From positions 1 to 39,483 of the forward strand of contig CAIWCL010000272.1 of NCBI GenBank assembly GCA_903911205.1: 39,483 nt of DNA. The letters run 5' to 3'. Under the pieces are notes generated by a model. The model saw only the letters and a list, made by a program, of their open reading frames with translations, was not told the origin of the DNA and searched no databases. This document shows, piece after piece, positions 4,168-36,281 of the stretch. How positions within the stretch are numbered: position 1 is the stretch's first letter; every line of letters begins with the position of its first letter. The translations under genes and the position numbers were made by a program. The stretch comes from an uncultured bacterium. GTDB taxonomy: Bacteria; Planctomycetota; Phycisphaerae; Phycisphaerales; SM1A02.

Positions 4168-5286
4168 TCAGTGACGCGACGAACGACCTTTTTCGATCAG
4201 CGCTCGCATCGATTCGTGTGTTTCTTTCGCGGCCCCCGAGAGCATCGCGGCCTGCTCTTCGGCGTGGTAGCTCGATCGAACCAATGGTCCAGATTCACAC
4301 ACCTTGTAGCCGCGCATGAGCGCTTCATGGCGATACATCGCGAATTGATCTGGATGGACCCATCGATCAATGGGTAGGTGGTTGCGTGTTGGTTGGAGAT
4401 ACTGACCAATCGTGATGATGTCGGCGTCACTTGCGCTTCGCACATCATCAAGCAACTCAAGAACTTCTTGGTCCTGCTCGCCAATTCCCACCATGATCCC
4501 GGTCTTTGTCACAAGACCGCTCTTCTTGAACTGCGCGAGAACTGCCAGGGAGCGCTCGTATTTCGCCTGTGGACGCACCGCGGGGTGCATTCTCTTTACG
4601 GTCTCCATGTTGTGAGAAATGATCTCTGGCCGGGCATCGCACACGGTCTGAATTGCTTTCTCATCACCCTGGAAATCGCCGACCAAAATCTCAACCGACA
4701 TGTTTGGACAGGCTTCATGAACGCGATGAATGGTCTCTGCCCAAATTGCAGCGCCCCCGTCCGCAAGTTCATCACGATTCACACTCGTGATCACGACGTG
4801 CTTCAAGCCCATCAACGCGAGTGACGCTGCGACGCGCCGTGGCTCATCAAGGTCGTACACCGGCGGCTTGCCAGTTTTCACGTTGCAGAATCCGCAGGCG
4901 CGCGTGCACGTGTCGCCGAGAATCATGATGGTGGCGGTGCCGCGGCCCCAACACTCACCCATGTTCGGGCAGGAAGCCTCCTGGCACACCGTGTGTAGGC
5001 GGTGTTCGTCGATGATCTTCTTCAGCCGTTCGTAACCTTCGCCGCCGGGCACGCGCGCGCGCAACCACTCGGGCTTGCGCTGCACACGTAAGTGATGCGC
5101 TTCAGCCTCCCGGTTGTTCACGACGAGTCCGGCCAGATCGAGTTTGGACGTGCCAGTCGCGCGCTGGGTATCTCCACCAAGCGGACGTGGATGCCGGGCC
5201 AGGGTGCGAGCAAGTGCTTCCGCAGTCGGGCCGCTCGTGACCCCGGAAGGTGTAGAGCCAGAAGACGATGAACCAGCGTCAGACAT
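4168..5286 (-). CDS. lipA: lipoyl synthase (radical SAM)
   Basis: LipA inserts two sulfurs into protein-bound octanoyl groups to make lipoate on 2-oxoacid dehydrogenases and the glycine cleavage H protein. From ATG at 5286 the protein has 372 residues. It shows both iron-sulfur motifs: C-x4-C-x5-C at 101-112 (CQEASCPNMGEC) for the auxiliary cluster and CTRACGFC at 127-134 for the radical SAM cluster. The C-terminal RSSYHAEEQ carries the Arg-Ser-Ser element that ligates the auxiliary cluster. The first 80 residues (Ser/Gly/Thr-rich, then ARTLARHPRP) make it longer than the usual 300-320. The frame is open further upstream, but that part is antisense to the M16 peptidase and is not credible. 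No lipB is next to it. Confidence 0.97.
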   Translation of the reverse strand: MSDAGSSSSGSTPSGVTSGPTAEALARTLARHPRPLGGDTQRATGTSKLDLAGLVVNNREAEAHHLRVQRKPEWLRARVPGGEGYERLKKIIDEHRLHTVCQEASCPNMGECWGRGTATIMILGDTCTRACGFCNVKTGKPPVYDLDEPRRVAASLALMGLKHVVITSVNRDELADGGAAIWAETIHRVHEACPNMSVEILVGDFQGDEKAIQTVCDARPEIISHNMETVKRMHPAVRPQAKYERSLAVLAQFKKSGLVTKTGIMVGIGEQDQEVLELLDDVRSASDADIITIGQYLQPTRNHLPIDRWVHPDQFAMYRHEALMRGYKVCESGPLVRSSYHAEEQAAMLSGAAKETHESMRALIEKGRSSRH

Positions 5287-5491: not shown

Positions 5492-6796
5492 ATGACCACG
5501 ACTGCCTCCAACATGCACCGAACCGCCCGCCTTTCGAATGGCTTGGAGATCCAAGCTGAGATTGATCCCTTGGCACACACTGCCGCGGTTGGTTTCTTTG
5601 TGCGCACAGGTTCCCGCGACGAGCCTTCTGAACTGATGGGAGTTTCGCACTTCCTTGAACACATGATGTTTAAAGGCAGTGAGCATCGTGGTCCCGAAGA
5701 AGTGAATCGCGACTTCGATGATCTCGGCGCGAATCACAATGCGTTTACGACCAACGAACTCACCGCATACCACGCGCATGTGCTTCCCGAACGCGCATGT
5801 GCTGTGTTGGAGATCCTCGCCGACATTCTGCGCCCCGCACTTCGTCCAAAGGACTTCGATGAGGAAAAGGGCGTCATTCTCGAGGAAATCGCGATGTACG
5901 CCGATCAACCATTTTGGGTTGGTTACGAGGCGATGATGGAGCATTTGTACGCGGATCACCCACTCGCGCATCGCGTGCTCGGAACAACGGCGACTGTCAC
6001 CGCACTCACGCGTGATCAGATGGCCGACTACTTTGAACGTCGCTATTCCGCAGACAACACCGTGCTTGTTGCCGCGGGAAAGATTGATTTTGATCAGCTC
6101 GTTCGCGACGCAGAGAAACTCTGTGGACACTGGCGTCCCGCTTCTCCAACACGCGCGCATCCCACGTGGAAGCCTCAATCATCGGAAGCCGTCATTCGTC
6201 TGAAGAATACGGCGCGTGCGTACATCTTGCTCTCCATGCCTGCACCGTCGATCCAAGATGAACGTCGGTATGCCGCCGGAATTCTCATGCATATTCTCGG
6301 TGGCGGCGACGGTTCGCGGCTCCATTGGGCGCTTGTTGAAACCGGACTCGCCGAAGAGGCAAGCGCGAGTTACGACGGCCATGATGGCACTGGCGATTCC
6401 ACGCTCTTCGCGGTCTGTGATACAGACAAGGTCGATGAGATTGAGGGAATCCTTCGTCGTGAGTTGAGCGCTGTGGTTGCGAGTCTCACGGATGATGATC
6501 TTCTCCGTGCACGAAGCCGTATCGCCACCGGCGCAGCGGCCGCAAGTGAGCGACCAAACGGGCGCATGTTCCGACTGGGAACACTCTGGGGATACGGTGC
6601 GACCTACATTCCACTCGACGAAGAGGTGGAGCGTATTTCACATGTCACACTCGCGGACCTTCGCGAGGTTGCAGATGCGTTCCCGTTGCAACCAACAGTC
6701 CGGGTCGTGGTCGTACCTCAAGAGAGTTCGACGTCTGAAAGTTCCGCCGACGATGCAGATCTTGCTGACGTCGACGCGACTGAAACTCTGAACTAA
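5492..6796 (+). CDS. M16 family zinc metallopeptidase (processing-peptidase-like)
   Basis: The protein has 434 residues from ATG at 5492; a second ATG at 5513 is an alternative, and the open frame upstream to 5333 is unlike the family. It carries the inverted zinc motif HxxEH as H53-F-L-E-H57 in GVSHFLEHMMFKGS, followed by NAFTTNELTAYHAHV and EEKGVILEEI, where the third zinc ligand is expected. This matches the insulinase/mitochondrial processing peptidase family, with an N-terminal catalytic and a C-terminal inactive domain. There is no signal peptide, so it is probably cytoplasmic; substrates are unknown. It diverges from lipA over 205 bases and converges with the HDOD gene, whose stop lies three bases beyond its own. 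Confidence 0.93.
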   Translation: MTTTASNMHRTARLSNGLEIQAEIDPLAHTAAVGFFVRTGSRDEPSELMGVSHFLEHMMFKGSEHRGPEEVNRDFDDLGANHNAFTTNELTAYHAHVLPERACAVLEILADILRPALRPKDFDEEKGVILEEIAMYADQPFWVGYEAMMEHLYADHPLAHRVLGTTATVTALTRDQMADYFERRYSADNTVLVAAGKIDFDQLVRDAEKLCGHWRPASPTRAHPTWKPQSSEAVIRLKNTARAYILLSMPAPSIQDERRYAAGILMHILGGGDGSRLHWALVETGLAEEASASYDGHDGTGDSTLFAVCDTDKVDEIEGILRRELSAVVASLTDDDLLRARSRIATGAAAASERPNGRMFRLGTLWGYGATYIPLDEEVERISHVTLADLREVADAFPLQPTVRVVVVPQESSTSESSADDADLADVDATETLN

Positions 6797-15236: not shown

Positions 15237-16457
15237 ATGTCCGATCCCGGTTTCCAGCATCCCGCTTCAAGCGCGTCACACGGCGGTCAGCCCGCACAGA
15301 ATCCGCCAATTCAAAACCCGCCAATTCAAAACCCGCCAATTCAAAACCCTTGGTCCCAACCCGCATCAACGTCTCCTTCGACGGATGCGTCGCGAGAATT
15401 GATGCCAGCCGAACCAGCGTTGAGTTCGCAATGGCATGATCTTGTGGCGGGAATTGGCGAAGTGCGCCGGGCCGTCGAGCGTGTCCGGGGCGAGATTCAC
15501 CGCACAATTGTCGGACAAGACGAAGTCGTTGACCAGGCGATTCTGGCGATCCTCTGTGGCGGTCACGCGATCGTCGAGGGCGTGCCCGGTCTCGCGAAGA
15601 CACTGCTTGTTTCAAGCATCGCAAAGACGTTGAGCCTGCGCTTCTCGCGCATTCAGTTCACGCCCGATCTGATGCCGAGTGACATGACAGGCACAGAAGT
15701 TATCCAGGAAGATCGCGCAACAGGTTCGCGAGGACTTCGCTTTGTGAAGGGTCCGATTTTCGCGAACATCGTTCTTGCCGACGAAATCAACCGCACACCA
15801 CCCAAGACGCAGGCCGCCCTTCTCGAAGCAATGCAGGAGCGGCAAGTCACGGCGAACGGCGTTCACTACCGCCTGCCAAACCCATTCTTTGTGCTCGCCA
15901 CGCAAAATCCGATTGAACAGGAAGGCACCTACCCGCTTCCTGAAGCACAACTCGATCGCTTTATGTTCAACATCCGGATTGGCTATCCGACGGAAAGCGA
16001 AGAACTGGAGATTGTGCGCCGTACGACATCAACGGGTCTCGCAGATCCAAGCCCAGTGCTCACGGCGGAAGACATTGTTCGCATGCAAGAGTTGGTTCGG
16101 AAGATCGATGTCAACGACGACACCGTGCGACTCGCGATCGGCATCGTTCGCGCCACGCGCGTGAAAGAAGAAGGCCAAGCACTCGCCGTCTGTAAGGACT
16201 ATCTCGCGTGGGGTGCTGGTCCGCGTGCGAGCCAATTCCTCGTGCTTGCCGCGAAGGCGCACGCGCTCCTTCGCGGGAGCGGGAATGCGACCGAGGAAGA
16301 TCTCTACGCGATCGCGCTTCCGGTCATGCGTCACCGCATCGTGGTCAATTTCAACGCCGAGGCAGACGGCGTGAAGCCTGACGATGTTGTGCGACTCATC
16401 CTCGAAAATATGCGTGGTGATCGCGTTTCTCGAAAACTTGATCCTGTTGCGCGCTAA
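15237..16457 (+). CDS. MoxR-family AAA+ ATPase
   Basis: The 406-residue protein is a MoxR ATPase, a chaperone-like AAA+ subfamily that typically works with VWA-domain partners. It has Walker A GVPGLAKT preceded by GGHAIVE, Walker B LADEINRTPPKTQAALLEAM, the family text TQNPIEQEGTYPLPEAQLDR, and a helical lid domain. The first 65 residues are unusual: a low-complexity Pro/Gln/Asn leader with the pentapeptide NPPIQ repeated three times, encoded by exact 15-bp repeats. AGGAG five bases before ATG 15237 supports the start. It is the first gene of the long envelope operon, followed after 18 bases by the DUF58 gene, the usual MoxR companion. Confidence 0.95.
   Translation: MSDPGFQHPASSASHGGQPAQNPPIQNPPIQNPPIQNPWSQPASTSPSTDASRELMPAEPALSSQWHDLVAGIGEVRRAVERVRGEIHRTIVGQDEVVDQAILAILCGGHAIVEGVPGLAKTLLVSSIAKTLSLRFSRIQFTPDLMPSDMTGTEVIQEDRATGSRGLRFVKGPIFANIVLADEINRTPPKTQAALLEAMQERQVTANGVHYRLPNPFFVLATQNPIEQEGTYPLPEAQLDRFMFNIRIGYPTESEELEIVRRTTSTGLADPSPVLTAEDIVRMQELVRKIDVNDDTVRLAIGIVRATRVKEEGQALAVCKDYLAWGAGPRASQFLVLAAKAHALLRGSGNATEEDLYAIALPVMRHRIVVNFNAEADGVKPDDVVRLILENMRGDRVSRKLDPVAR
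15303..15347 (+). repeat. three perfect 15-bp tandem copies inside the MoxR gene
   Basis: CCGCCAATTCAAAAC is repeated exactly three times in frame and encodes the NPPIQ repeats of the N-terminal leader. The identity at third codon positions points to recent duplication. Confidence 0.9.
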
Positions 16458-17444: not shown

Positions 17445-19921
17445 GTTTCTTGCATCCAGCACTCGCGTGGGCTGCAGTCGGAGCGGTTGCGCTTCCGATC
17501 GTGATTCACCTCCTCTTTCGCCGTCGTCGAGTGCCGGTTGATTGGGCGGCGATGGAGCTCTTGCGCGAGGCGATTCGCCGAACAAATCGACGACTTCGAT
17601 TTGAACAATGGTTGGTGCTTGTTTTGCGCGCACTCGCGGTACTAGCGGCTGGGCTTGCGATCGCGGTGCCGATGTTTGGAGATGCCGCGTTCAATGAATC
17701 ACGCGAGAAGACATGGGTTGTCGTTCTCGATAACAGTGCAACATCGGCGTTGACTGTGGGCACAGAGTCTGAGCTTGCACGACTCCGCGAGGAAGTTCTT
17801 GCAACAGTGGAAAGATCGCGTGCGACGGGCGATCGATTTGCGATCGTCTCGGCGGCGTCTGAGCCATCACTCATGCTCGCGCCAACGGCAGACTTCGCGG
17901 AGTTCGAACGCGTTCTCGCGCGCATCGAATCCACCGAAACTCCAGGTGATCTTGCTGGTGCTGTGAGTCTGGCGCGCGAGACCTCAGTGGATGTTGGTGA
18001 CGACGCATCGCGCATGCGCCGCGTTCTTGTTGCGAGCTCGTTCCGTCGCGGCACACTTCGTGAAGGTACAACACTGGGAGCGGATTCTTCGGCAGAGTCT
18101 GCGATCGATCCCACGCGTCGCGACGGTGAAAGTCCGCGGCAATCAGTGGACGCTGCGTCCAACCTGACGCCGATCGAGTACTTGGCCATTGCACCCGCGG
18201 TTGAGCTTCCCACTGATGTACGCATTGATCGCATTGAGACCCGAGCGTTACCTTCTGGCGGCGCTTTCCTTGTGCGCGCGGTCATTTCACGCGAGGGATT
18301 GAACCTTGATGCTGCGGAAACCACCGTGCGCGTGAAGGGTGAGTCCATGAACGCAGTTGCGCCTCGCGTTGTGCAGTGGGACGCGGGCCAATCAGAGTCG
18401 ACTGTGGAGTTCCAAGTCGTTCCGCGCGAGGGTGGTCATGATGTCAACGGCCGACGTCGAGAGATCGTTGTCTCGATCGACGACGATGTGCTCTCGGTAG
18501 GCAACACTGCGTACGCGGTCATTGATGTTCGTCAGGAGATCGAGGTTGCAGTCATCGGGAGGCGAACATCGCTCGATGGCGCTGATCTTGAGAAAGTGCC
18601 GGGCTCGCTCTGGATTGCACGCGCGTTGATGCCCGGATTGGGCGTGACGAATGGGATTCGCGTGCGCGAAATGGACCCAGCATCGTGTGACAGCCGCGCA
18701 TTGCTTGGAGTTGATGTTGTTGTCATTGCACGGCCCGATCTCCTTTCGCCATCATCCTGTGATGCGATTGGAGTATTTGTGCGTGAGGGTGGCGTTGCTG
18801 TGATTGTTCCAAATGGAGAATCGCTCGCGCAAACCTGGGGACCAACAACATTGACACGTCTTGGTGTGTCGATGCGCGTTGGACCGGAGGCGCGCGATTT
18901 CGAAACACCACTTCTCCTTCGGGACGAGCAACCATCATCAAGCCTTCTCGCTTCCATCGCACCAGAACTCCCCGCACTCTGCGCGCCTATTGAAGTTCGT
19001 CGCGCGATCACATTGGAAGGCGTGACTGGAGCTGAGGCGATCCTCGTCTTTGCGGATGGGACACCATTCGTTGTGGCGCAGTCACCAGTGCATCGTGAAG
19101 TGCAGACCAGTGGTGATGCAGGGACGCCATCGAGTGCGGTCAAGAAGGTCAACAGAGGGGGTTCGATTGAGCGCGGACTTGTTGTATGTCTTGCGGCGAG
19201 TCCTGAACTTTCATGGACAAATCTTCCCGTGAAACCACTGATGGTGCCGCTCTTTCAAGAGATTGTGCGGACCGGTATTGAGCTTGCACATGCGAGTGAT
19301 GAGGTTGCCGTTGGTGATCCATTGCGCACTGGAAGCAAGGGTGTCTTTCGTCTGTCTGACACCGCGCGTGCATCGAGTGCTCTTGAGATTGGCGATGACG
19401 GCGTTTCACTGACCGTCATCCCCACTTCTGGGATCTGGAAGAGCGACGAAGGATCATTGATCGCAGCGAATGTTCGACCCGCGTCGTTGGTACTTGCGCC
19501 AAATGCACGCGAATCGGTTCGTGCAGCATTTCTTCCGCTCGGTGGGGTTCGAATTGCAGAGTCTCCAGTCGAACGCTCGAGTAGTGGTGGGACTTCCCTA
19601 AACAATGTTTCAGGTGAACGAGCGCTTGAGAGTGACGCAATGTCGTCAGCTGACGTGTCATCAGTATCCGCGTCAGTATCCGCGTCAGTATCCGCGTCAT
19701 GGTCGAGTTTCTGTGCTCTCTCACTTTTGATTTTGGCACTCGCCCTCCTGCTTGCAGAAGGTGTCTTGAGTCGCATCTTTTCGCATGCTTCACTCGCCCG
19801 CGCGGGTGGTCGTGATGGTGGTATCTCGACGGTTGGAAGTATCCGTGCTCGTGCAACACCACCCTCGCGAACACATCAGTCATCTTCAACAACCGGTGTG
19901 GGCGTTGGAGGTCTGAAGTGA
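17441..19921 (+). CDS. BatA-like membrane protein with VWA-type region
   Basis: The 826-residue protein opens with the BatA N-terminal double-membrane domain: FLHPALAWAAVGAVALPIVI, then HLLFRRRRVPVDWAAMELL and a second hydrophobic helix LVLVLRALAVLAAGLAIAVP. A VWA-type strand follows with WVVVLDNSATSAL, a DxSxT form of the metal site. The long middle is predicted extracytoplasmic. Near the C-terminus a Ser-rich SVSASVSASVSAS stretch precedes a last membrane helix (FCALSLLILALALLLAEGVL). BatA-type proteins are partners of MoxR and DUF58. The gene overlaps both neighbours by four bases (ATGA before, GTGA after), so translation is probably coupled. Confidence 0.88.
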   Translation: MSFLHPALAWAAVGAVALPIVIHLLFRRRRVPVDWAAMELLREAIRRTNRRLRFEQWLVLVLRALAVLAAGLAIAVPMFGDAAFNESREKTWVVVLDNSATSALTVGTESELARLREEVLATVERSRATGDRFAIVSAASEPSLMLAPTADFAEFERVLARIESTETPGDLAGAVSLARETSVDVGDDASRMRRVLVASSFRRGTLREGTTLGADSSAESAIDPTRRDGESPRQSVDAASNLTPIEYLAIAPAVELPTDVRIDRIETRALPSGGAFLVRAVISREGLNLDAAETTVRVKGESMNAVAPRVVQWDAGQSESTVEFQVVPREGGHDVNGRRREIVVSIDDDVLSVGNTAYAVIDVRQEIEVAVIGRRTSLDGADLEKVPGSLWIARALMPGLGVTNGIRVREMDPASCDSRALLGVDVVVIARPDLLSPSSCDAIGVFVREGGVAVIVPNGESLAQTWGPTTLTRLGVSMRVGPEARDFETPLLLRDEQPSSSLLASIAPELPALCAPIEVRRAITLEGVTGAEAILVFADGTPFVVAQSPVHREVQTSGDAGTPSSAVKKVNRGGSIERGLVVCLAASPELSWTNLPVKPLMVPLFQEIVRTGIELAHASDEVAVGDPLRTGSKGVFRLSDTARASSALEIGDDGVSLTVIPTSGIWKSDEGSLIAANVRPASLVLAPNARESVRAAFLPLGGVRIAESPVERSSSGGTSLNNVSGERALESDAMSSADVSSVSASVSASVSASWSSFCALSLLILALALLLAEGVLSRIFSHASLARAGGRDGGISTVGSIRARATPPSRTHQSSSTTGVGVGGLK
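19661..19696 (+). repeat. three perfect 12-bp tandem copies in the BatA-like gene
   Basis: TCAGTATCCGCG occurs three times in frame and encodes the repeated Ser-Val-Ser-Ala element just before the last membrane helix. Confidence 0.9.
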
Positions 19922-27495: not shown

Positions 27496-28940
27496 TAACT
27501 CATGCGCGAGTTGAGTGCAGAAAGCTTTGCAACCTCATTTTGTCGCGGCACTTCCTCAAGAGTGTCATCATTTCAACGACGACTGGGTGGATCGCGCAGC
27601 CGAGTGCGGCAGTATCTCCCTCTCTTCGAGGGGTCGATTTGAAATCGGAGTTTCCCTGTAGCGCATCCATGGATGCCACTGATACTGACAACATCAAATC
27701 TCGCGCTTGTGGAGTATCTCCACCAGAGAGCGACGTCTCCCTGACGATGTATCACGCGTCGCATCACGTGATGCGCCAGATGAGTCGCCCTTCTGAGTTG
27801 ATCGTCAGCCCGACCTTCGCCGCTCCTGCGTTCAGGACTCTCGCTGCTCAAAGGCCTTTCACGAGTCACCTCGTTCCTCAGGATGAGCTCAAGCCCACGA
27901 CTCCGAAGCAGTCCGTGAATTCTTCCACGGAAAATGGCATCAAGCCCGCGCAATCGGTCACGCGCGGAGCGGAGAATGCACCTCTTGCCGAGGAGATCTC
28001 GCCGAAGCTTGAGGAAGCGGTGCAGCGCGGGTTCGAGTCGCTGCGAAGGCTGCAAAAGTCGGATGGTTCCTTCGGTCAAGGACGATTCGGTGAGCATGTC
28101 GGCATCACAAGCCTTTGCGCTATCGCTCTGATGGCAGATGGCAATGTGCCCGGCAGAGGCGAGTTTGGCGACTGCGTCCAAAAGGCACTCGATTTCGTCC
28201 TCTCTCATTCCACCGAAACGGGTCTCCTTGTTTCCGATGACACTCACGGCCCCATGTACGGCCATGGCTTCGCGACGTTGTTCCTCGGTGAGATCTACGG
28301 GATGAATCAGGACGACGATCGGGTTCGTGACGCGCTGGTCCGCGCGGTGCAACTCATCGTGAGTAGCCAGAACGACGAGGGTGGTTGGCGCTACAACCCT
28401 GTTCCCGCAGACGCTGATGTCTCTGTCACGATCTGCGAGATCATGGCGCTTCGCAGTGCCCGGAACGCAGGAATCAAGGTTCCGAAGTCGACGATCGACG
28501 ACGCGATTCGATACGTTCGTTCGTGCCAAAACGACGACGGGGGCTTCCGATACATGAAAGAGGTAAGCGGATCGGCGTGGCCTCGGACCGCGGCGGGGAT
28601 CGCGAGCCTCTTTTATGCCGGTGTCTACGAGGATCAATCGATCGATCGTGGTCTCGACTACTTGACGCGCAACGCGTTCCCACGCGGTACGGGTGGGATC
28701 GGCGTCGGTTTCGCCCAACAACACTATTTTTACGGGCACTACTACGCGGTTCAAGCCATGTATCTCGCTGGCGGAGAACGGTGGAAGAATTGGTGGCCCG
28801 CCATTCGGGATGAACTCATCGCCAAGCAGAATGCGGATGGCACGTGGACCGACCAGCAAGTCGGCGAGGCGTACGGAACCGCGATGGCACTCATCGTGCT
28901 TCAGATGCCGAAGCGATATCTCCCCATCTTCCAACGCTAG
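27492..28940 (+). CDS. prenyltransferase/squalene-cyclase-like alpha-toroid repeat protein
   Basis: The 482-residue protein starts with GTG at 27492, in a GTGA overlap. The first 165 residues are low-complexity and include a weak hydrophobic segment (SVIISTTTGWIAQPSAA) that may be a signal peptide; the true start is uncertain. From residue about 175 come repeated helix pairs with the QW-type motif: QKSDGSFGQG, SQNDEGGWRYN, CQNDDGGFRYM and KQNADGTWTD. This is the alpha/alpha toroid shared by squalene cyclases, prenyltransferases and complement-like proteins. I see no DxDD acid of a cyclase and no zinc site, so a binding role is as likely as catalysis. It lies in the MoxR operon; such proteins recur there in planctomycetes. 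Confidence 0.85.
   Translation: MITHARVECRKLCNLILSRHFLKSVIISTTTGWIAQPSAAVSPSLRGVDLKSEFPCSASMDATDTDNIKSRACGVSPPESDVSLTMYHASHHVMRQMSRPSELIVSPTFAAPAFRTLAAQRPFTSHLVPQDELKPTTPKQSVNSSTENGIKPAQSVTRGAENAPLAEEISPKLEEAVQRGFESLRRLQKSDGSFGQGRFGEHVGITSLCAIALMADGNVPGRGEFGDCVQKALDFVLSHSTETGLLVSDDTHGPMYGHGFATLFLGEIYGMNQDDDRVRDALVRAVQLIVSSQNDEGGWRYNPVPADADVSVTICEIMALRSARNAGIKVPKSTIDDAIRYVRSCQNDDGGFRYMKEVSGSAWPRTAAGIASLFYAGVYEDQSIDRGLDYLTRNAFPRGTGGIGVGFAQQHYFYGHYYAVQAMYLAGGERWKNWWPAIRDELIAKQNADGTWTDQQVGEAYGTAMALIVLQMPKRYLPIFQR
27770..27785. repeat. perfect 16-bp palindrome inside the toroid gene
   Basis: CGCATCACGTGATGCG is its own reverse complement and contains CACGTG. It lies in the low-complexity 5-prime part of the gene. 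Confidence 0.85.
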
Positions 28941-28949
28941 AGGTGAGTC

Positions 28950-30599
28950 ATGCGAAACTCGACGCAACCAGCGACCTGGAAATCTCCTCGCCCTTCGATG
29001 ACCGCTTGGAGCGCTTTGTTGAACTTGCGATTTTGTTACCGAGCCCAGCGACGATTCAGCGCTCTGATCGCAAGTTCGATTGTCTGTCTTGAGTTCATTT
29101 TTCCAAACTTTGTCGAGGTTGGTACCGCGCTGCGCGCTGCGACTCTTCAGGATGAGATTGTCATTCCAATTGGAGTCGGCGCGGAACTTCAAGGCGCGGA
29201 GCGGAAACAATCGACGGATTCCGCAAGCGTCACTGTTGATCAAACTGCTTCTATGGTTGTGAGCCTCTTGCTCAATGATGGCAACTGGATCACGGGAACC
29301 CTTCAATCTATTCGCGCCGATTCCTGGTCGATTGTGGTTCGCAGTGCTCGATCCGCTTCGGAGCAGGACCTCGCGGTTGCGGACATCGTTGCCTTCGTGG
29401 TCCGTCGACAACCATTGCGCCCCGCGATTGGATCTGAGACGGAGTTCCGGCAACCGAACGAAGGATCGCTCTTGCGTGTAGCGCCACTCTCGCTTGGTGT
29501 CATCGAAACAGTCGATGGCCAGCGGATCCCAGGGACGTTCCGAGTCGTCAATGGTGTTGCTGTTTGGGATCACCGTTGGATAGGTGCGATCCCTATTGAT
29601 CTCGAGCAAGTTTCGAACCTCCGCATGATCGCGGATCGAATCGCACCACAGACTGCGGACTCGGACGCGGTTCTTCTCGTCAATGGAGATGTTGTTCGCG
29701 GCTTCGTCGATGAACTCGTCGAAGACCTCAAACTCTCTGTTCTGCAACCCACGACAGCTCAAGAGAGTGTTCGTTCGGGGACCAAAGCAACAGAAACCGC
29801 GAACGAGCAAACTGGGCAACCTATTTCGAGTGAAATTGGAAAGCCAGATCAAGCCTCGGCTGAAGAGTCCAAGACCGCAACATCCAAGGATGCGGTGCCA
29901 ACAGAGAACTCTTCGACTCGCACCATCGCGATGAATCGCGTTGCTGCGATTGCCCTTGCGGAAATGCCGACCGAACCGCGTGATGGACTTGAGATTTGGA
30001 CATCGGACGGTTCGTTGGTGGCTGCGCGAAACCTGACCTTCAACAGAGATACAGGCTGGGGATTCCAACTTGCCAGCGATTGGCTCTCGAAGTTCCGCTC
30101 GAAACCAACCTCGGATAACAGCGCGGCGGATCCAATCGCGGGCGTACTTGATCGAAGTCGATGGACTCCACTCTCTTCGTGTTCGATCGAATATCGCCGT
30201 GACGAGACGGATAGTTATCTCTACGACACAGTTCGTCTTTCGAGCGTCGCTCGGCGTGAGCGATTTTTGCTCGGTTGTGCTGATGTCTTGATCGAAGGTC
30301 CTTGCACTGTCCGCTTCAACGTCCCGACCGACACACCGCTTGAAGGCACGTTGTTGACAGGTGTCATGAGCATCACGGAACCCGCACCCTCCGATGTTCG
30401 AGTTGAGGTGAGTGTTTGCTTCGAGGGAGGTTTGAGTGAGACCTTTGTGCTCGATGGAACATCGCGCACGAAGCCATTTGTCATTCGCGCAACCGCTGGC
30501 GTGACCCCTGTTGTGGTTGTGAAATTGAATGACGGCGGAAATGGCATCATTGGTGACCGCATTGTTCTTGAGCGAACCGCACTTGTCGCGCCCCGGTGA
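28950..30599 (+). CDS. exported protein with C-terminal NPCBM-like domain
   Basis: The 549-residue protein starts at ATG 28950, nine bases after the previous stop and just after GAGG. A long N-terminal lead contains a hydrophobic stretch (FSALIASSIVCLEFIF) that probably directs export. The middle has repeated beta text such as VSLLLNDGNWITGTLQSI and VLLVNGDVVRGFVDEL, which look like small SH3-like barrels of the kind in 'dispersed' planctomycete proteins. The C-terminal 150 residues (DTVRLSSVARRERFLLGCAD to VVKLNDGGNGIIGDRIVLE) resemble an NPCBM/NEW2 carbohydrate-binding domain. It is the last operon gene; comEC converges on it with no spacer that I can define. Confidence 0.75.
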   Translation: MRNSTQPATWKSPRPSMTAWSALLNLRFCYRAQRRFSALIASSIVCLEFIFPNFVEVGTALRAATLQDEIVIPIGVGAELQGAERKQSTDSASVTVDQTASMVVSLLLNDGNWITGTLQSIRADSWSIVVRSARSASEQDLAVADIVAFVVRRQPLRPAIGSETEFRQPNEGSLLRVAPLSLGVIETVDGQRIPGTFRVVNGVAVWDHRWIGAIPIDLEQVSNLRMIADRIAPQTADSDAVLLVNGDVVRGFVDELVEDLKLSVLQPTTAQESVRSGTKATETANEQTGQPISSEIGKPDQASAEESKTATSKDAVPTENSSTRTIAMNRVAAIALAEMPTEPRDGLEIWTSDGSLVAARNLTFNRDTGWGFQLASDWLSKFRSKPTSDNSAADPIAGVLDRSRWTPLSSCSIEYRRDETDSYLYDTVRLSSVARRERFLLGCADVLIEGPCTVRFNVPTDTPLEGTLLTGVMSITEPAPSDVRVEVSVCFEGGLSETFVLDGTSRTKPFVIRATAGVTPVVVVKLNDGGNGIIGDRIVLERTALVAPR

Positions 30600-33500
30600 A
30601 CGAGTCCATCGCAAGCGTCGACGCAGCTTGTTCCATGCACGACGCGAGCGCCATCGCGGCCAACGCCCAGCGGGTCTCCAGAGACGATCGATGCTTGTGT
30701 CGCAAAGAAACGCAAACAGATCTCGCTCGTAAAAATCGATGCGAACCGCGCCATCACGGCATGTCACAAGTCGGGAACTCGATTCCGGAAGTTGTCCTAC
30801 GAATCGGTCCATCCGAAAGCGACGCGCGGCTGTCGACTGCAAAATGAGATCAGGATCACAGCGCTGCAGCAGCGGAACAACCGCTTCACGCCAGCTTCCG
30901 TGGTGAGGTAGTTCCATCACCGCCGCGCAGAGTGCCTGCTCATCTTCTGTATCTCGCGTATCGCGCGCCAGTAGTTGTGCGCACCCAAGGGTCTCAATGT
31001 CACCGCAAAGGAGAATCGCTCCTCGATGAGAAGTTGTCTGTACGCCCTGATGCGCGTTCACTTCCGGCTCGGAGTGCGCGCGGGAGTTCAAAGTCGAAGT
31101 CGCACTTGGAAGATCGACGCGCATCACGAGCGACACATCATTGTCGCGAACCGTGCGCAATCCCGCTGGTGGCCACAACACACTCCATGTACTTGTCCCG
31201 AAAGTGAGCCTGTCTCCCGCGGCCACCGTCTCGATAGTGACACCGTGACGAATTGCGATGTCGAGCAATTCTTGAACAGCTGGTGCTCGTTTCGCGGCTG
31301 CCAACATCGAATCATGCACGATGAGTCGTCGCACTGTTGCGAATCGCAGCAAGTCAGCCGCGCCACTGAAGTGGTCAAGATCAGGATGACTGACGATGAC
31401 CGCTTCGACCTCGCCGCCTCGCGCATTGATTTCGGGAAGCATGATTCGTGAAGCGGTCGAACCAATAGAACTTGACCCAACATCAAAGACGACGAGTTTG
31501 TTGTCGCATGCGAAGAGGTGTGCGGAACCGTCGCCAACAGCAAACGTGGTCAACGACGCGAGTTTGAGTTGCGCGGTCTCTGTCTCGGGAACCACTGATT
31601 TCGTTGTCCCTCGAAAGATTTCGGGACCAAGCCAGACACCAACCGTGATGGTCATGAGCGCACCAAGTCTGAAACGCCAGCGTGCGGTCGAGAGAAGGAG
31701 CACAACACCCAAGAGTGTGATCGCGGCACATGCAATTCGAGTGATAAGTGGCGGTGCTGACCAATTTTCGAGGCTCCAACCCCCTCCTCCGAGTGCGATC
31801 GATTGATCGACGATTGCGACCTGTGCATGTGTAAGAACGTGAAGGGGATATCCAAGCGGTGCCACCGCTGTTTCTGAGATGGAGCCGATGATGGATTTTG
31901 GATAAGCGATCGCGAGCGTGAGTGTGGAAAGAGGTGCGCAGAGAAAGGTCAGCAGAAATCCTGATGGATGCATCGTTCCGAAATGGGCGAGCGCGATGGG
32001 CGTGCCGACGGCGAAGGCGGCAACACCCGCGGCGATGGAGCGCGCGCAGTGTTCACCAACAATTCCACGCCATGCGACAGATGTCTGCCATGCTGCATCG
32101 CCTGGAATCCACGGCAACCATGCGTGCCGCACTCGTGGTGCAAGATGACGCAGCGCAATGACACAACCGAAGCTCAACTGAAATCCCGCATTGGATGCGA
32201 CAGAGGGATCATCAACGATCATCCACACTGCGGCGAGCGCAAGTACCGCATCACCGTGCCAGTCTCGTCGCAGCATGGACCCAGTGGCACCCAAGATTGC
32301 CATCAGAGACGCGCGCTCTGCGCTGGCCGCAGGTGCCATGACAAAGAGTGCGCCCGCGGCGCCCATCATCACGCATCCGGCGACGATTCTGGAGTCTCGA
32401 AAGACAACCCTCGCAACAGCTCCGACGACCCAACCAAGGACAGCGAGGTTGAAACCAGAGATCGCGAGAATGTGCGCGAGCCCGCTCGCACGGAATGCAT
32501 TCTCAATCTCTGCGTAGCCTTCACCTGAGTCACCAAGGACAAGCGCAATCAGCATGGACTGAACGCCCATGTTTCTCATGTACTCGCTTTGCTTGTCTCC
32601 AGGTTGAGACACACCCGGCATCCCAGCGAGCAGCCCGATACGAAGTCGATCACGGAGTGAAGCGCGGACGCGCGCGATGGCGTCCTTGATAGGAGTCGTG
32701 GATCGCACGTCGGTCAGTACCGCGCATACCTCTGCGGACTCGACGAAGATGGATCCAAAGACGCGATTCCGTGCAGCCCATAACTTTGGATTATTCGAAT
32801 GAGGATTGTGATCTGCATGGACTCCGCGGAGAGTCCCGATGACACGCACACGGTCCGCGACTCGCCATGAGGGACGAGTTCCCATCACACTGAGGGTCAA
32901 CTTGAAATCTTCGCTCGAGCCTTCACCTTGAGCGAGCGATGGAGTACATGAGATCGCATGGTCATCGCAAAGAAAGCGAACGTCACGCAGTGTGCATCGA
33001 TGGATTGGATCTTTCTCGAAGTGCCGTGAGAGGATGTCTGTCGCGAAACCGCGCGTCACAAACTCATCATCGACGGTTGCTTCAATCTGCACCAACGTTC
33101 CAGCATCACGTTCATCGTTCGGAAACGTGAAAGCGATGAAACTCTTCTGTTGGTCAACTTGTTGGACACGAATCGTGAATCCGATGGTTCCTGACGCGAG
33201 TAGTAGCAGCGCGAACGCAGGCCAAGATCGCTTCCAGAATCGCCACCGCTCCATTCTTGCGGCAAGAAACCTCGATCGACGAGTTTGCGTCGTCCAGTCT
33301 CTCAATCGCCCGTCCGTGGGCTCCTCACGATTCGCGCCATACAAGCGCCCCGTGTTCCAGAAACAGAACAGCGCTCCAAACGCGATCGCGACTCCACACC
33401 ATGAGAGCGTCCGATGTAGTTCTGCGCCAGGCGTACCGCGCGCGAGATCGAACCAAGGCATCGTGTCGACAAGTGCAGCACCAGCCCAAAAAGCGACAAC

Positions 33501-33683
33501 GACCGAGAGAAAGACGCGCGGAGACTCGGACGCCATCACCCTGTCATGTGTGATGATCTCCTTCGCGCGAACATCGGTCTGTGACACAAGTTCTTCAGGC
33601 GGTTGGTCGCGTGCAACAACACCGAGGTTTCCAACAAGAGGAACCCCCGACGCTCCCAGTTCTCCACGATGTTTGACGGACAT
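30600..33683 (-). CDS. comEC: ComEC/Rec2-type DNA uptake channel protein; 3-prime end undefined
   Basis: ComEC carries single-stranded DNA across the inner membrane. From ATG at 33683, after AGGGGA, the protein has N-terminal membrane helices, an OB-like soluble part, the Competence domain (LAHILAISGFNLAVLGWVVG, with many helices after it), and a C-terminal metallo-beta-lactamase-like domain with VSHPDLDHFSGA and ELPHHGSW. An ATG at about 33536 is an alternative start. The conserved domain ends near DGAVRIDFYERDLFAFL at about 30700. After that no stop codon occurs in frame until 27573, about 3 kb into the antisense of two well-supported plus-strand genes. The end given here is simply the boundary of the neighbour; the true terminus cannot be read from this sequence. 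Confidence 0.85.
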
Positions 33684-33840
33684 CAATTCCCCTGTTCAAA
33701 CGAATCCCACGCGGATTTGGCGGAGATTCCCGCGCAGATCTGCGTTCCAATTTCCACCTTGCGATCACGCATCCGTTCGACCTCATCGCCCGCGACCGTC
33801 CTACAGACAGTTCTGCCAGATGAGCCTGAAATCTCTTCTC

Positions 33841-33950
33841 GTCCCATGAACCCACATGAAATCACATGAACCCACATGAACTCGCGTGAGCCCACGTGAA
33901 ACCGCGTGAGCCCACGTGAGCCCACGTGAAACAACGTGAAACAACGTTGA
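33841..33950. repeat. array of ten to eleven 10-bp repeats, CACGTG-centred
   Basis: Units of exactly ten bases follow without spacers, with consensus CCCACGTGAA: CCCACATGAA, ATCACATGAA, CCCACATGAA, CTCGCGTGAG, CCCACGTGAA, ACCGCGTGAG, CCCACGTGAG, CCCACGTGAA, ACAACGTGAA, ACAACGTTGA. Left-hand units have CATG, right-hand units CGTG. Some contain the palindrome CACGTG. The array lies about 160-270 bases upstream of comEC in the gap 33684-34129, where no gene can be supported. Confidence 0.95.
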
Positions 33951-33990
33951 CGCCTCACTGCGCGCGCTCAGGGCACAACCAAACTACCGC

Positions 33991-34002
33991 ACCGCGCGCG
34001 GT
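33991..34002. promoter_or_regulatory. 12-bp GC palindrome downstream of trpD
   Basis: ACCGCGCGCGGT is a perfect palindrome in the gap between trpD and comEC. It may be part of a transcription end or an operator. Confidence 0.3.
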
Positions 34003-34021
34003 GATCTTTGAACTGTGGCAC

Positions 34022-34039
34022 TTTTTCCACGCGGAAAAA
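34022..34039 (-). terminator. possible terminator hairpin after trpD
   Basis: TTTTTCC (34022-34028) and GGAAAAA (34033-34039) pair around ACGC, 90 bases beyond the trpD stop. The stem is AT-rich with few GC pairs, so termination is only possible. Confidence 0.35.
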
Positions 34040-34129
34040 AACGAGAGAGATTTTGAATTTCGCGCGAACGGATTTTGATCGGCTCTGCGCAGGACTCGAT
34101 GAGTTTGACGTCTCGGAGCGCGCGCAGGA

Positions 34130-35194
34130 TCATCGACCGTGCGACTTTTCACGCAGCGCTTCGAGCGTTGCATGCGCGCGACCGAAGTCAATTGCTTCAG
34201 CGGCCGCACCAATTCCATCCTCGATGGATGAGGTCACCCCTGCGACGTACAGCGCCGCCGCCGCATTCACGAGCACCATCGCGCGTCGCGCTCCACGCTC
34301 TTCGCCAGAGAGGACATTCATGAAGAGTTTCGCAGCCTCATCAAGCGAATCGGGCGCCAGCGTCGCTGGATCAGCGCGTTCGAGGCCGAGCACTCGCGGG
34401 TCGACGGTCCATTCGCGCACCGCTCCGTCGCGCACTTCGGCGACGCGTGTGGGGACAGCGATTGAAATCTCATCAAGTCCATCATCAGAGTGCAACACGA
34501 GCGCATGTGTCGCACCAAGTCGCACCAACGCATCCGCAACCGGACGCACAAAGTGTCCGGCATACACGCCCATGACTTGTCGCCCGGCACCCGCGGGATT
34601 CGTCAGTGGTCCAAGTAGATTGAACAACGTGGGCACGCCGAGTGCTTTCCGCACTGGCATCACATGACGTGCAGCGGGGTGATGGTGAATGGCGAACGAG
34701 AAGCAAATGCCGACCTCGTCGATGCAGCGCGCCTGTGTTTCGGGCGACGCGTTCACATCAACGCCAATCTTCTCCATCACTTCCGCAGAACCACGCCCGG
34801 TACGGGAACGATTGCCGTGCTTCGCAACTTTCGCGCCCGCGGCTGCTGCAACAACCGCGGCGAGCGTCGACACATTGAACGTCTTGGGTGCGCCGCCGGT
34901 TCCTGCCGTATCAACGATGGACTTCGGATCCGTCGAACACGGAACACGCTCCACACGCGCGCGCATCACACTCGCGGCGCCAACGATCTCATCAACCGTC
35001 GGCAAGCGCGTTGCCATCAGCGCAAGAAAAGCACCCATCTCAGCGTGGTGTGATTCACCCGAAGCCATCTCTTCGAAGGCCGCACGCGCGTCGGCTTCTG
35101 TGAGGGTGCCACCTTTCAGTAGCGTACGGAGGAACGGGGTGAGTTCACCGGGCCGGGACGACTTTGCGAATTCAGCGGGTCCATCGTGGGGCAT
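34130..35194 (-). CDS. trpD: anthranilate phosphoribosyltransferase
   Basis: TrpD joins anthranilate to phosphoribosyl pyrophosphate in tryptophan synthesis. From ATG at 35194 the protein has 354 residues, the usual length. Family motifs are present: DTAGTGGAPKTFNVST (phosphate loop), KHGNRSRTGRGSAEVMEKIG, NLLGPLTNPAG, and HSDDGLDEIS, which holds the metal-binding acids. Open frame upstream of the ATG overlaps the lgt start and is not credible. The gene stands alone here with no other trp gene nearby. It diverges from lgt across 46 bases that contain an inverted repeat. Its downstream gap contains two palindromic elements and the decamer array. Confidence 0.96.
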   Translation of the reverse strand: MPHDGPAEFAKSSRPGELTPFLRTLLKGGTLTEADARAAFEEMASGESHHAEMGAFLALMATRLPTVDEIVGAASVMRARVERVPCSTDPKSIVDTAGTGGAPKTFNVSTLAAVVAAAAGAKVAKHGNRSRTGRGSAEVMEKIGVDVNASPETQARCIDEVGICFSFAIHHHPAARHVMPVRKALGVPTLFNLLGPLTNPAGAGRQVMGVYAGHFVRPVADALVRLGATHALVLHSDDGLDEISIAVPTRVAEVRDGAVREWTVDPRVLGLERADPATLAPDSLDEAAKLFMNVLSGEERGARRAMVLVNAAAALYVAGVTSSIEDGIGAAAEAIDFGRAHATLEALREKSHGR

Positions 35195-35210
35195 TCTTCT
35201 AGCGTAGCGA

Positions 35211-35236
35211 GAATGCTGCGCTTTCCCGTAGCATTC
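35211..35236. promoter_or_regulatory. 7-bp inverted repeat between trpD and lgt
   Basis: GAATGCT and AGCATTC are perfect inverted arms around 12 bases. The right arm touches the AGGG just before the lgt ATG, so a hairpin would cover the lgt ribosome site. Confidence 0.4.
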
Positions 35237-35240
35237 AGGG

Positions 35241-36281
35241 ATGGCGTGGCTCAGCAATCTTCCAACGACGCTCGCCGAATCGATCGTGCACACACTCGAT
35301 CCATTCGTGTTTCAAATCAGCCCGGGCGTTGGCCCGCGCTGGTACGGCATTGCGTATCTCGCGGGGTTTGTCGTGGGCTGGCTCGTCCTGCGATGGCTCG
35401 CGAGTTCGGGTCGCATTCCACTGTCGCCGCGGCAAGTGGGCGATCTTGTCACCAACGTCATCATCGGCGTGATCGTTGGCGGGCGCGTGGGCCACGTTGT
35501 GTTTTATGAACCGCATCTCTTGGTGGAGTTCAGCGACTCATTCCCGTTCTGGGGTTTGCTCGCGATCAACAAGGGCGGCATGTCGAGTCATGGCGGCGTG
35601 ATCGGTGTTGCGCTTGCGATCATTCTCTTCGCGCGTCGCGAGAAGTTGCCGATCCTCGTCGTTGGTGACGCAGTCGCGTTTGCCGTCCCGTGGGGATTGA
35701 TGTTCGGACGCCTCGCGAATTGGGTGAATGGCGAGTTGTGGGGTCGACCATTCCCCGATGCGATGCAAACAAATCCACCATGGTGGAGCGTGAAGTACCC
35801 CGAAGAACTCACGCTTTTCACGCGCGTGCCGGCGCAGCTTGAACCGTTGCGTGAACTCGCACCCGCGACAGAGCGCCTCTCTGACGCGAAGTTTCTCGAG
35901 TGGATCCAAACGACCGCGTACGACCACGCAAACAGCGCGCACGATGCAGTTGTCACTGCGATCGCGCCTGTCCTCACCGCCTACTACCCGAGCCAGTTTT
36001 TCCAAGCGATTGCCGAAGGTCCGTGCCTTCTCATCCTGATGTCGCTTGCGTGGCTCGCACCGCGTCGTGCGGGCACGATTGCCGCCGTGTTTCTCGCGGG
36101 TTACGGCGTATTGCGCTACACGACCGAGCAATTCCGCGAGGCCGATTCACCGGTCATCGCACTCGGTTTCCTCACACTTCCGATGCTGCTCTCGATCACC
36201 ATGATCGCGTTCGGCGTGATGTTCATCGTGCTCTCGCGTCGATCGCCCTACATCGGCGGGCTCTTGCGGAAAGCGGCATGA
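35241..36281 (+). CDS. lgt: prolipoprotein diacylglyceryl transferase
   Basis: Lgt moves diacylglycerol from phosphatidylglycerol to the lipobox Cys of prolipoproteins in the inner membrane. The 346-residue protein is strongly hydrophobic with about seven membrane helices. Diagnostic parts are RWYGIAYLAGFVVGW, GGRVGHVVFYEP, NKGGMSSHGGVIGV (with the catalytic-type His), and the family signature FGRLANWVNGELWGRP. A large extracytoplasmic insertion (about residues 175-240) separates two helix groups, longer than in many versions. The start ATG at 35241 directly follows AGGG, a poor spacing. The stop overlaps an ATG at 36278 of a further open frame leading into a secreted lectin gene. Confidence 0.96.
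   Translation: MAWLSNLPTTLAESIVHTLDPFVFQISPGVGPRWYGIAYLAGFVVGWLVLRWLASSGRIPLSPRQVGDLVTNVIIGVIVGGRVGHVVFYEPHLLVEFSDSFPFWGLLAINKGGMSSHGGVIGVALAIILFARREKLPILVVGDAVAFAVPWGLMFGRLANWVNGELWGRPFPDAMQTNPPWWSVKYPEELTLFTRVPAQLEPLRELAPATERLSDAKFLEWIQTTAYDHANSAHDAVVTAIAPVLTAYYPSQFFQAIAEGPCLLILMSLAWLAPRRAGTIAAVFLAGYGVLRYTTEQFREADSPVIALGFLTLPMLLSITMIAFGVMFIVLSRRSPYIGGLLRKAA

Follow-up and report, generated by a model that had tools for sequence, protein, structure and literature searches.

Iteron and operator arrays repeat a core at about one helical turn of DNA per unit. Tandem repeats in a promoter can set the expression of a gene, as described in passages on the phase-variable 7-bp repeats of Haemophilus hmw1A (PMC8262952), and repeats of longer units are, according to passages of another study, normally or weakly over-represented in prokaryotes (PMC4060949). 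For lake Planctomycetota, passages of a further study report intergenic tandem repeats to be variable and propose slippage (PMC9426551). Here we describe a 10-bp tandem array upstream of the DNA-uptake gene comEC in an uncultured member of the Phycisphaerales, located on a contig of 39,483 nucleotides (CAIWCL010000272.1, hereafter the window). Among the titles and abstract openings retrieved on Planctomycetes repeats, comEC with tandem repeats, leader repeats and promoter repeats, nothing concerned this locus; the word 'tandem' was absent from the main text of PMC6461901, as far as its available passages extend, and PMC9426551 alone turned up on intergenic tandem repeats in Planctomycetota or Phycisphaerales. 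The array is in all likelihood a degenerate intergenic minisatellite, an ordinary and most likely neutral product of slippage, where both the route and the neutrality are what we infer from the sequences.

From 33841 to 33950, eleven units of exactly 10 bp each were found to follow one another head-to-tail, in the order GTCCCATGAA, CCCACATGAA, ATCACATGAA, CCCACATGAA, CTCGCGTGAG, CCCACGTGAA, ACCGCGTGAG, CCCACGTGAG, CCCACGTGAA, ACAACGTGAA and ACAACGTTGA. Tandem Repeats Finder (TRF) assigned the array period 10, 9.4 copies, 77% matches and a score of 90. The lag-10 identity within the array reached 76 of 100 positions, whereas no 100-base stretch exceeded 48 in any of 100 first-order Markov shuffles of the window and the flanks of the array scored 25 and 20. 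These values demonstrated that the array is real and that its spacing is exact and its units inexact. The description of an exact 10-bp array in an earlier note on this DNA thus holds for the spacing but not for the units themselves, only two of which are identical to the consensus CCCACGTGAA; at this count and at 77% matches, the near-identical units of a phase-variable contingency locus were not seen in the array.

The units are arranged in blocks, as the same note had perceived in separating a CATG-type left part from a CGTG-type right part, with CATG in units 1 to 4, CGTG in units 5 to 10, and a degenerate CGTT in unit 11. Adjacent units and units two apart were more alike than in shuffled order (p 0.017 and p 0.007, respectively; 5000 permutations, uncorrected over seven lags), units 5–6 and 7–8 form a near-repeat of 20 bp, and transitions account for 13 of the 22 departures from the majority base by hand count. 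The neighbour-unit similarity, the 20-bp near-repeat and the CATG and CGTG blocks are the outcome expected of stepwise slippage duplication followed by substitution. A short stretch of the comEC leader would thereby have been duplicated by strand slippage during replication, further duplications of the copies would have followed in steps of 10 and 20 bp, and point mutations would afterwards have diversified the units into a CATG half and a CGTG half; the array may persist because the leader between the promoter and the comEC start tolerates many sequences.

Comparisons between species, each represented by one genome, bore on this reading. The two species nearest by comEC were those of locus L115 (genome G002) and locus L114 (probably genome G011 or one very near it, as judged by visual agreement of their comEC starts over the overlapping part), and both are without the 10-bp array while keeping trpD, a promoter-like block and comEC. 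Their trpD is 88% identical to that of the window over the best segment and their comEC 59% (G002) and 58% (G011) identical, and they are therefore other species, not strains. Beyond the trpD stop, the first 202 aligned columns of L114 and L115, through TGTAGTTTGGCTGCACGTG, show 3 differences, after which the two sequences diverge until they become similar again near the comEC start; GCGTGGAAAAAGTGCCACA and GTAGTTTGG of their promoter-like block are retained in the window. Turnover between relatives was evident in that the same leader holds a 13-bp array in L115 (2.7 to 3.7 copies, depending on the TRF row) and an 8-bp array of 5.5 copies in L114. The earlier note had raised a control region or a product of replication slippage as ideas for the array and had taken its absence from close relatives with intact comEC as a sign of neutral slippage; the absence from L115 and L114, which have other arrays in the leader, favours slippage, and the control region found no support.

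The promoter-like motif and the likely comEC start are about 300 nt apart in the window, 274 nt in L115 and 283 nt in L114, the last measured to the ATG at 467 that aligns with the ATG of L115 (the first-in-frame rule gives 22 nt, from the motif at 184 to a TTG at 206). The same distance amounts to 35–81 nt in six congeners (L117, L119, L121, L123, L124 and L126), as measured to the first in-frame start with start codons guessed. Because of this difference, a lengthening of the comEC leader seems to have taken place within a single small group, whose species each have a main repeat of their own. At 13 other trpD–comEC junctions and in 13 named loci downstream of trpD, TRF found no CGTG/CATG array like that of the window; between trpD and comEC, it assigned L024 and L016 period-10 runs that differ in sequence from this array (3.1 and 2.3 copies, respectively), and L021 (= L122) an array of 12-bp period. 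One record among the relatives, L116 (JASGCF010000304.1), is titled Limnohabitans sp. MAG13 and holds a trpD 91% identical to that of the window over 354 residues and no comEC; it is likely misbinned or mislabelled.

Tandem arrays are abundant in the genome itself. The sample covered 47 of 393 contigs, arbitrarily numbered, to at most their first 20 kb (409,059 non-N bases), and overlapping TRF rows were merged with the best score retained, so that 192 rows became 146 arrays, or 357 per Mb; one Markov-shuffled copy yielded 21 unmerged rows as against the 192. A sample weighted towards contigs with CGTG matches was kept out of these rates. The density was 464 arrays per Mb in G002 and 502 in G011, from small samples of 60 and 70 kb, respectively, and 260 in G024 and 205 in G046, which are more distant and were sampled at 200 kb each. 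The arrays with periods of 7–20 and at least 2.9 copies numbered 57. Among these, 14 of the 22 with non-triplet periods were intergenic and 8 coding, whereas 4 of the 35 with triplet periods were intergenic and 31 coding. Five non-triplet arrays have period 10, and another five period 14. Intergenic 6-mer matches per thousand, figures heavily weighted by few long arrays, were 3.74 at lag 10, 1.52 at 11, 3.12 at 12, 3.23 at 14, 3.72 at 15, 3.27 at 16 and 0.62 at 17; lag 10 is thus highest by a tiny margin, level with lag 15, and most lags between 9 and 20 show frequent repeats. Since non-triplet intergenic arrays are common in the sampled genomes, little can be concluded from spacing or a shared core by itself, and even a strikingly regular array can be background.

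Several individual arrays stood out. An 11-bp array of CGTGATTTGAG in about eleven identical copies occupies C195:16813-16937 of G000, and a perfect 10-bp array of CGGTGTTTCG stands at the contig end of L100 (1-82; G000 C8), where the assembly probably broke in the array. Adjacent arrays with palindromic or oppositely oriented units were seen in L070 (5981-6017 and 6113-6153; GGCACGTGCC) and in G000 C178:8646-8892 (CGTGGCAGAAA and CGTGCCAGGTA). The window has two further perfect arrays of about three copies, one of 15 bp (CCGCCAATTCAAAAC) at 15303-15349 and one of 12 bp (TCAGTATCCGCG) at 19661-19699.

Some observations weigh against a neutral slippage product. The CRTGA core is retained in 10 of the 11 units while other positions vary, as a binding site could also bring about. 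In the leader of L115, CATG occurs three times, each time within TGCATG, at intervals of exactly 10 bp (~4550–4580, near the comEC start), and this run falls below the TRF threshold; any tetramer was tripled at lag 10 in 37 of 2000 Markov versions of this leader and at any lag of 7–16 in 379 of 2000, and the L114 leader has no tetramer triple at lag 10. This CATG triple may have arisen by chance or by a further slippage event, or it may be what is left of an older CATG array from which the left half of the window's array descends, and the lag-10 frequency makes a common 10-bp ancestor of both arrays conceivable. L115 and L114 also share an 8-bp array of 3.5 copies just after trpD, above the promoter-like block, so that not every array here turns over fast. 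Furthermore, all three species of the group carry some array in the leader, more than expected at ~18 arrays per 33.6 kb of intergenic sequence, a comparison in which the window was picked for its array; this recurrence and the short CATG run of L115 are mildly odd. The intergenic share of the genome sample (33,587 of 409,059 bases, ~8%) results from a crude choice of longest open reading frames.

The features of the locus are summarized in Table 1. Pfam matches to Competence (E 3.6e-28) and Lactamase_B (E 2.5e-8) confirmed that the array lies before a DNA-uptake gene, as had been proposed, and the gene on its other side proved to be trpD. The start of comEC is likely an ATG near 33683 that overlaps a TGA, as read from the sequence, which places the array to begin ~158 bp upstream of this start and 180 bp downstream of the trpD stop. 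The trpD gene adjoins comEC in 14 of 30 comEC loci, the window included (12 in the same genus and 2 in the same family), a count that is a lower bound with flanks of at most 1.5 kb. The nearest named trpD records are planctomycete metagenome-assembled genomes (MAGs), including the pond MAGs E1_MAG_00063 and D1_MAG_00057, and the window probably belongs to a freshwater bacterium resembling Phycisphaerae. The comEC frame itself is open for 2037 aa and runs antisense through a 549-aa plus-strand frame (28950-30599), and open frames of 1775-2139 aa occur at comEC in 10 of 15 congeners; such long antisense-overlapping frames probably reflect the rarity of antisense stops in a GC-rich gene.

Table 1. 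Features of the trpD–comEC region of the window.
Feature	Coordinates	Strand	Basis and remarks
Tandem array, 11 units x 10 bp, consensus CCCACGTGAA (minus strand TTCACGTGGG)	33841..33950		TRF and unit comparison
comEC open frame (Competence and metallo-beta-lactamase domains)	27573..33686	-	Pfam; frame continues beyond the comEC domains
trpD (Glycos_transf_3 family, E 6.8e-78)	34130..35293	-	Pfam; upstream neighbour of comEC, same strand
Candidate comEC promoter block (GCGTGGAAAAAGTGCCACA ... GTAGTTTGG on the minus strand)	33981..34033	-	Conservation
Putative comEC leader, ~300 nt, more than one third of its length array	33683..33980	-	Promoter-like motif and likely start

Counting the window, 9 of the 13 scored junctions have a GTAGNTT-type core of the candidate promoter block and L118, L120, L122 and L127 lack it, with the motif having been chosen by eye after viewing the sequences and its pattern widened twice; L116 was left unscored as it has no comEC match. 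A sigma-70 scan of 33500-34200 detected no promoter on the minus strand and one on the plus strand, and the promoter assignment therefore rests on conservation. With its position ~30 bp below this block, the array probably lies within the comEC leader and would thus be transcribed.

A regulator could bind each 10-bp unit and thereby control the transcription of comEC or of trpD and comEC together, a function that would fit with the retained CRTGA core, the proximity to the promoter-like block and the CATG triple of L115, as well as with the CGTGAA that is common to two other arrays of the genome (C289 and C327). We consider it unlikely, given that the two sister species retain trpD, the promoter-like block and comEC without the array. 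A CGTG/CATG array was not called by TRF at the 13 other junctions or in the 13 named loci downstream of trpD, the L115 triple being below threshold. Four CGTG at 10-bp spacing (at most one mismatch) did occur in nine arrays (C71, C88, C141 twice, C272, C289, C318, C327 and C347), with 18 matches vs 0 for the reversed pattern. At 11-bp spacing, however, CGTG gave 27 matches in eight arrays (C12, C178 twice, C195, C204, C283, C305 and C354; reversed control, 18 matches), and the 10-bp spacing was hence not preferred over it. The argument from the helical turn therefore fails. The related suggestion that bound proteins would lie on one face of the DNA stands only roughly; at 10.5 bp per turn, the face drifts by ~17 degrees per unit and by ~170 degrees across ten steps.

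Other tetramers also formed arrays at 10 bp, namely GCAT in 2, GACG in 2 and TTCG in 4; the reversed GACG pattern, as a control, had 10 matches, and one of the two GACG arrays coincides with the CGTG array of C71. Among these four, whose counts in the intergenic sample are 533 (CGTG), 531 (GACG), 504 (TTCG) and 301 (GCAT), CGTG is the commonest at 10 bp, and its arrays are still mildly in excess. A search for three GTGAA at 10-bp spacing gave 7 matches across 3 of 61 genomes, with 5 in the genome of the window, as against 11 matches in 6 of 61 genomes for the reversed control; the window's array is missing among these matches because it mixes GTGAA and GTGAG units. Found and expected numbers in the genome sample were close for CGTGAA (399/404), CATGAA (216/211) and CACGTG (121/134), and CACGTG was not enriched in the window either (12 found vs 19.8 expected). 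A class of binding sites is unnecessary to explain the arrays. As a candidate, a genome-wide CGTG binding motif was rejected in view of the 11-bp CGTG arrays, the GCAT, GACG and TTCG arrays, and the period-10 arrays of unrelated sequence in an arbitrary sample. A DNA uptake sequence was set aside as well; CCCACGTGAA occurs 8 times genome-wide, two of them in this array, vs 9 for the reversed control, which bears out the earlier caution that an uptake tag could not be claimed, and the CCCACGTGGA pointed out near 6160 is located at 6161-6170.

Alternatively, the array, transcribed with comEC, could fold into a long hairpin that tunes translation or mRNA stability, with the copy number as a dial. 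The unit TTCACGTGGG is self-complementary if G-U pairs are counted, the 126-nt minus-strand sequence has a predicted fold of -58.4 kcal/mol (z -6.2; 0 of 200 shuffles as good), and the fold of the real order of ten units was equalled by only 22 of 500 shuffled orders. Column-permuted ten-unit arrays, however, folded as well in 94 of 1000 cases (59 of 1000 for the plus strand), so most of the fold strength comes from the tandem structure and the composition. The plus strand also folds well (z -5.3), the G002 leader folds only modestly (z -2.0, equalled by 6 of 200 shuffles), and an Rfam search of 33400-34400 returned no family at its gathering score (one match, 23.4 vs 80 bits). The column permutation, which used ten of the eleven units, led us to reject the hairpin as a special feature, and a tuning hairpin is on balance rather improbable.

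We give an equally slim chance to the view that the comEC leader of this small group, stretched from 35-81 to ~270-300 nt by an array that differs from species to species, is a hotspot of repeat birth in which the array length, whatever the unit sequence, would tune comEC and thereby let DNA uptake vary between cells. If true, this would provide uncultured planctomycetes with a simple way to vary DNA uptake. That the array forms part of a small protein is barely credible, because the 91-aa minus-strand frame (33683-33958), although open across the array and ending in a TGATG that overlaps the comEC ATG, has no match in Pfam, the sole protein search made, is shifted in frame by each 10-bp period, and is replaced by different sequence at that place in the sister leaders.

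The array, which we regard as a slippage-born minisatellite, can thus be set against the described systems. It resembles iteron and operator arrays in its unit of about one helical turn and its repeated core, and differs from them in its absence from the orthologous position of the two nearest species, in showing no spacing preference and in having no known binder. Like the hmw1A repeats, as described in passages of PMC8262952, it is a tandem array placed in a gene's control or leader region, and by analogy with the expression set by those repeats a tuning role for the comEC array would be possible; it departs from them in its degenerate units and in being known here from sequence alone. With regard to the lake repeats (PMC9426551), the passages concern deletions within populations, in contrast to the comparison between species made here, and the comEC–trpD locus is not among them. 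The likeness lies in tandem repeats between genes of freshwater planctomycetes, for which slippage was proposed there as well.
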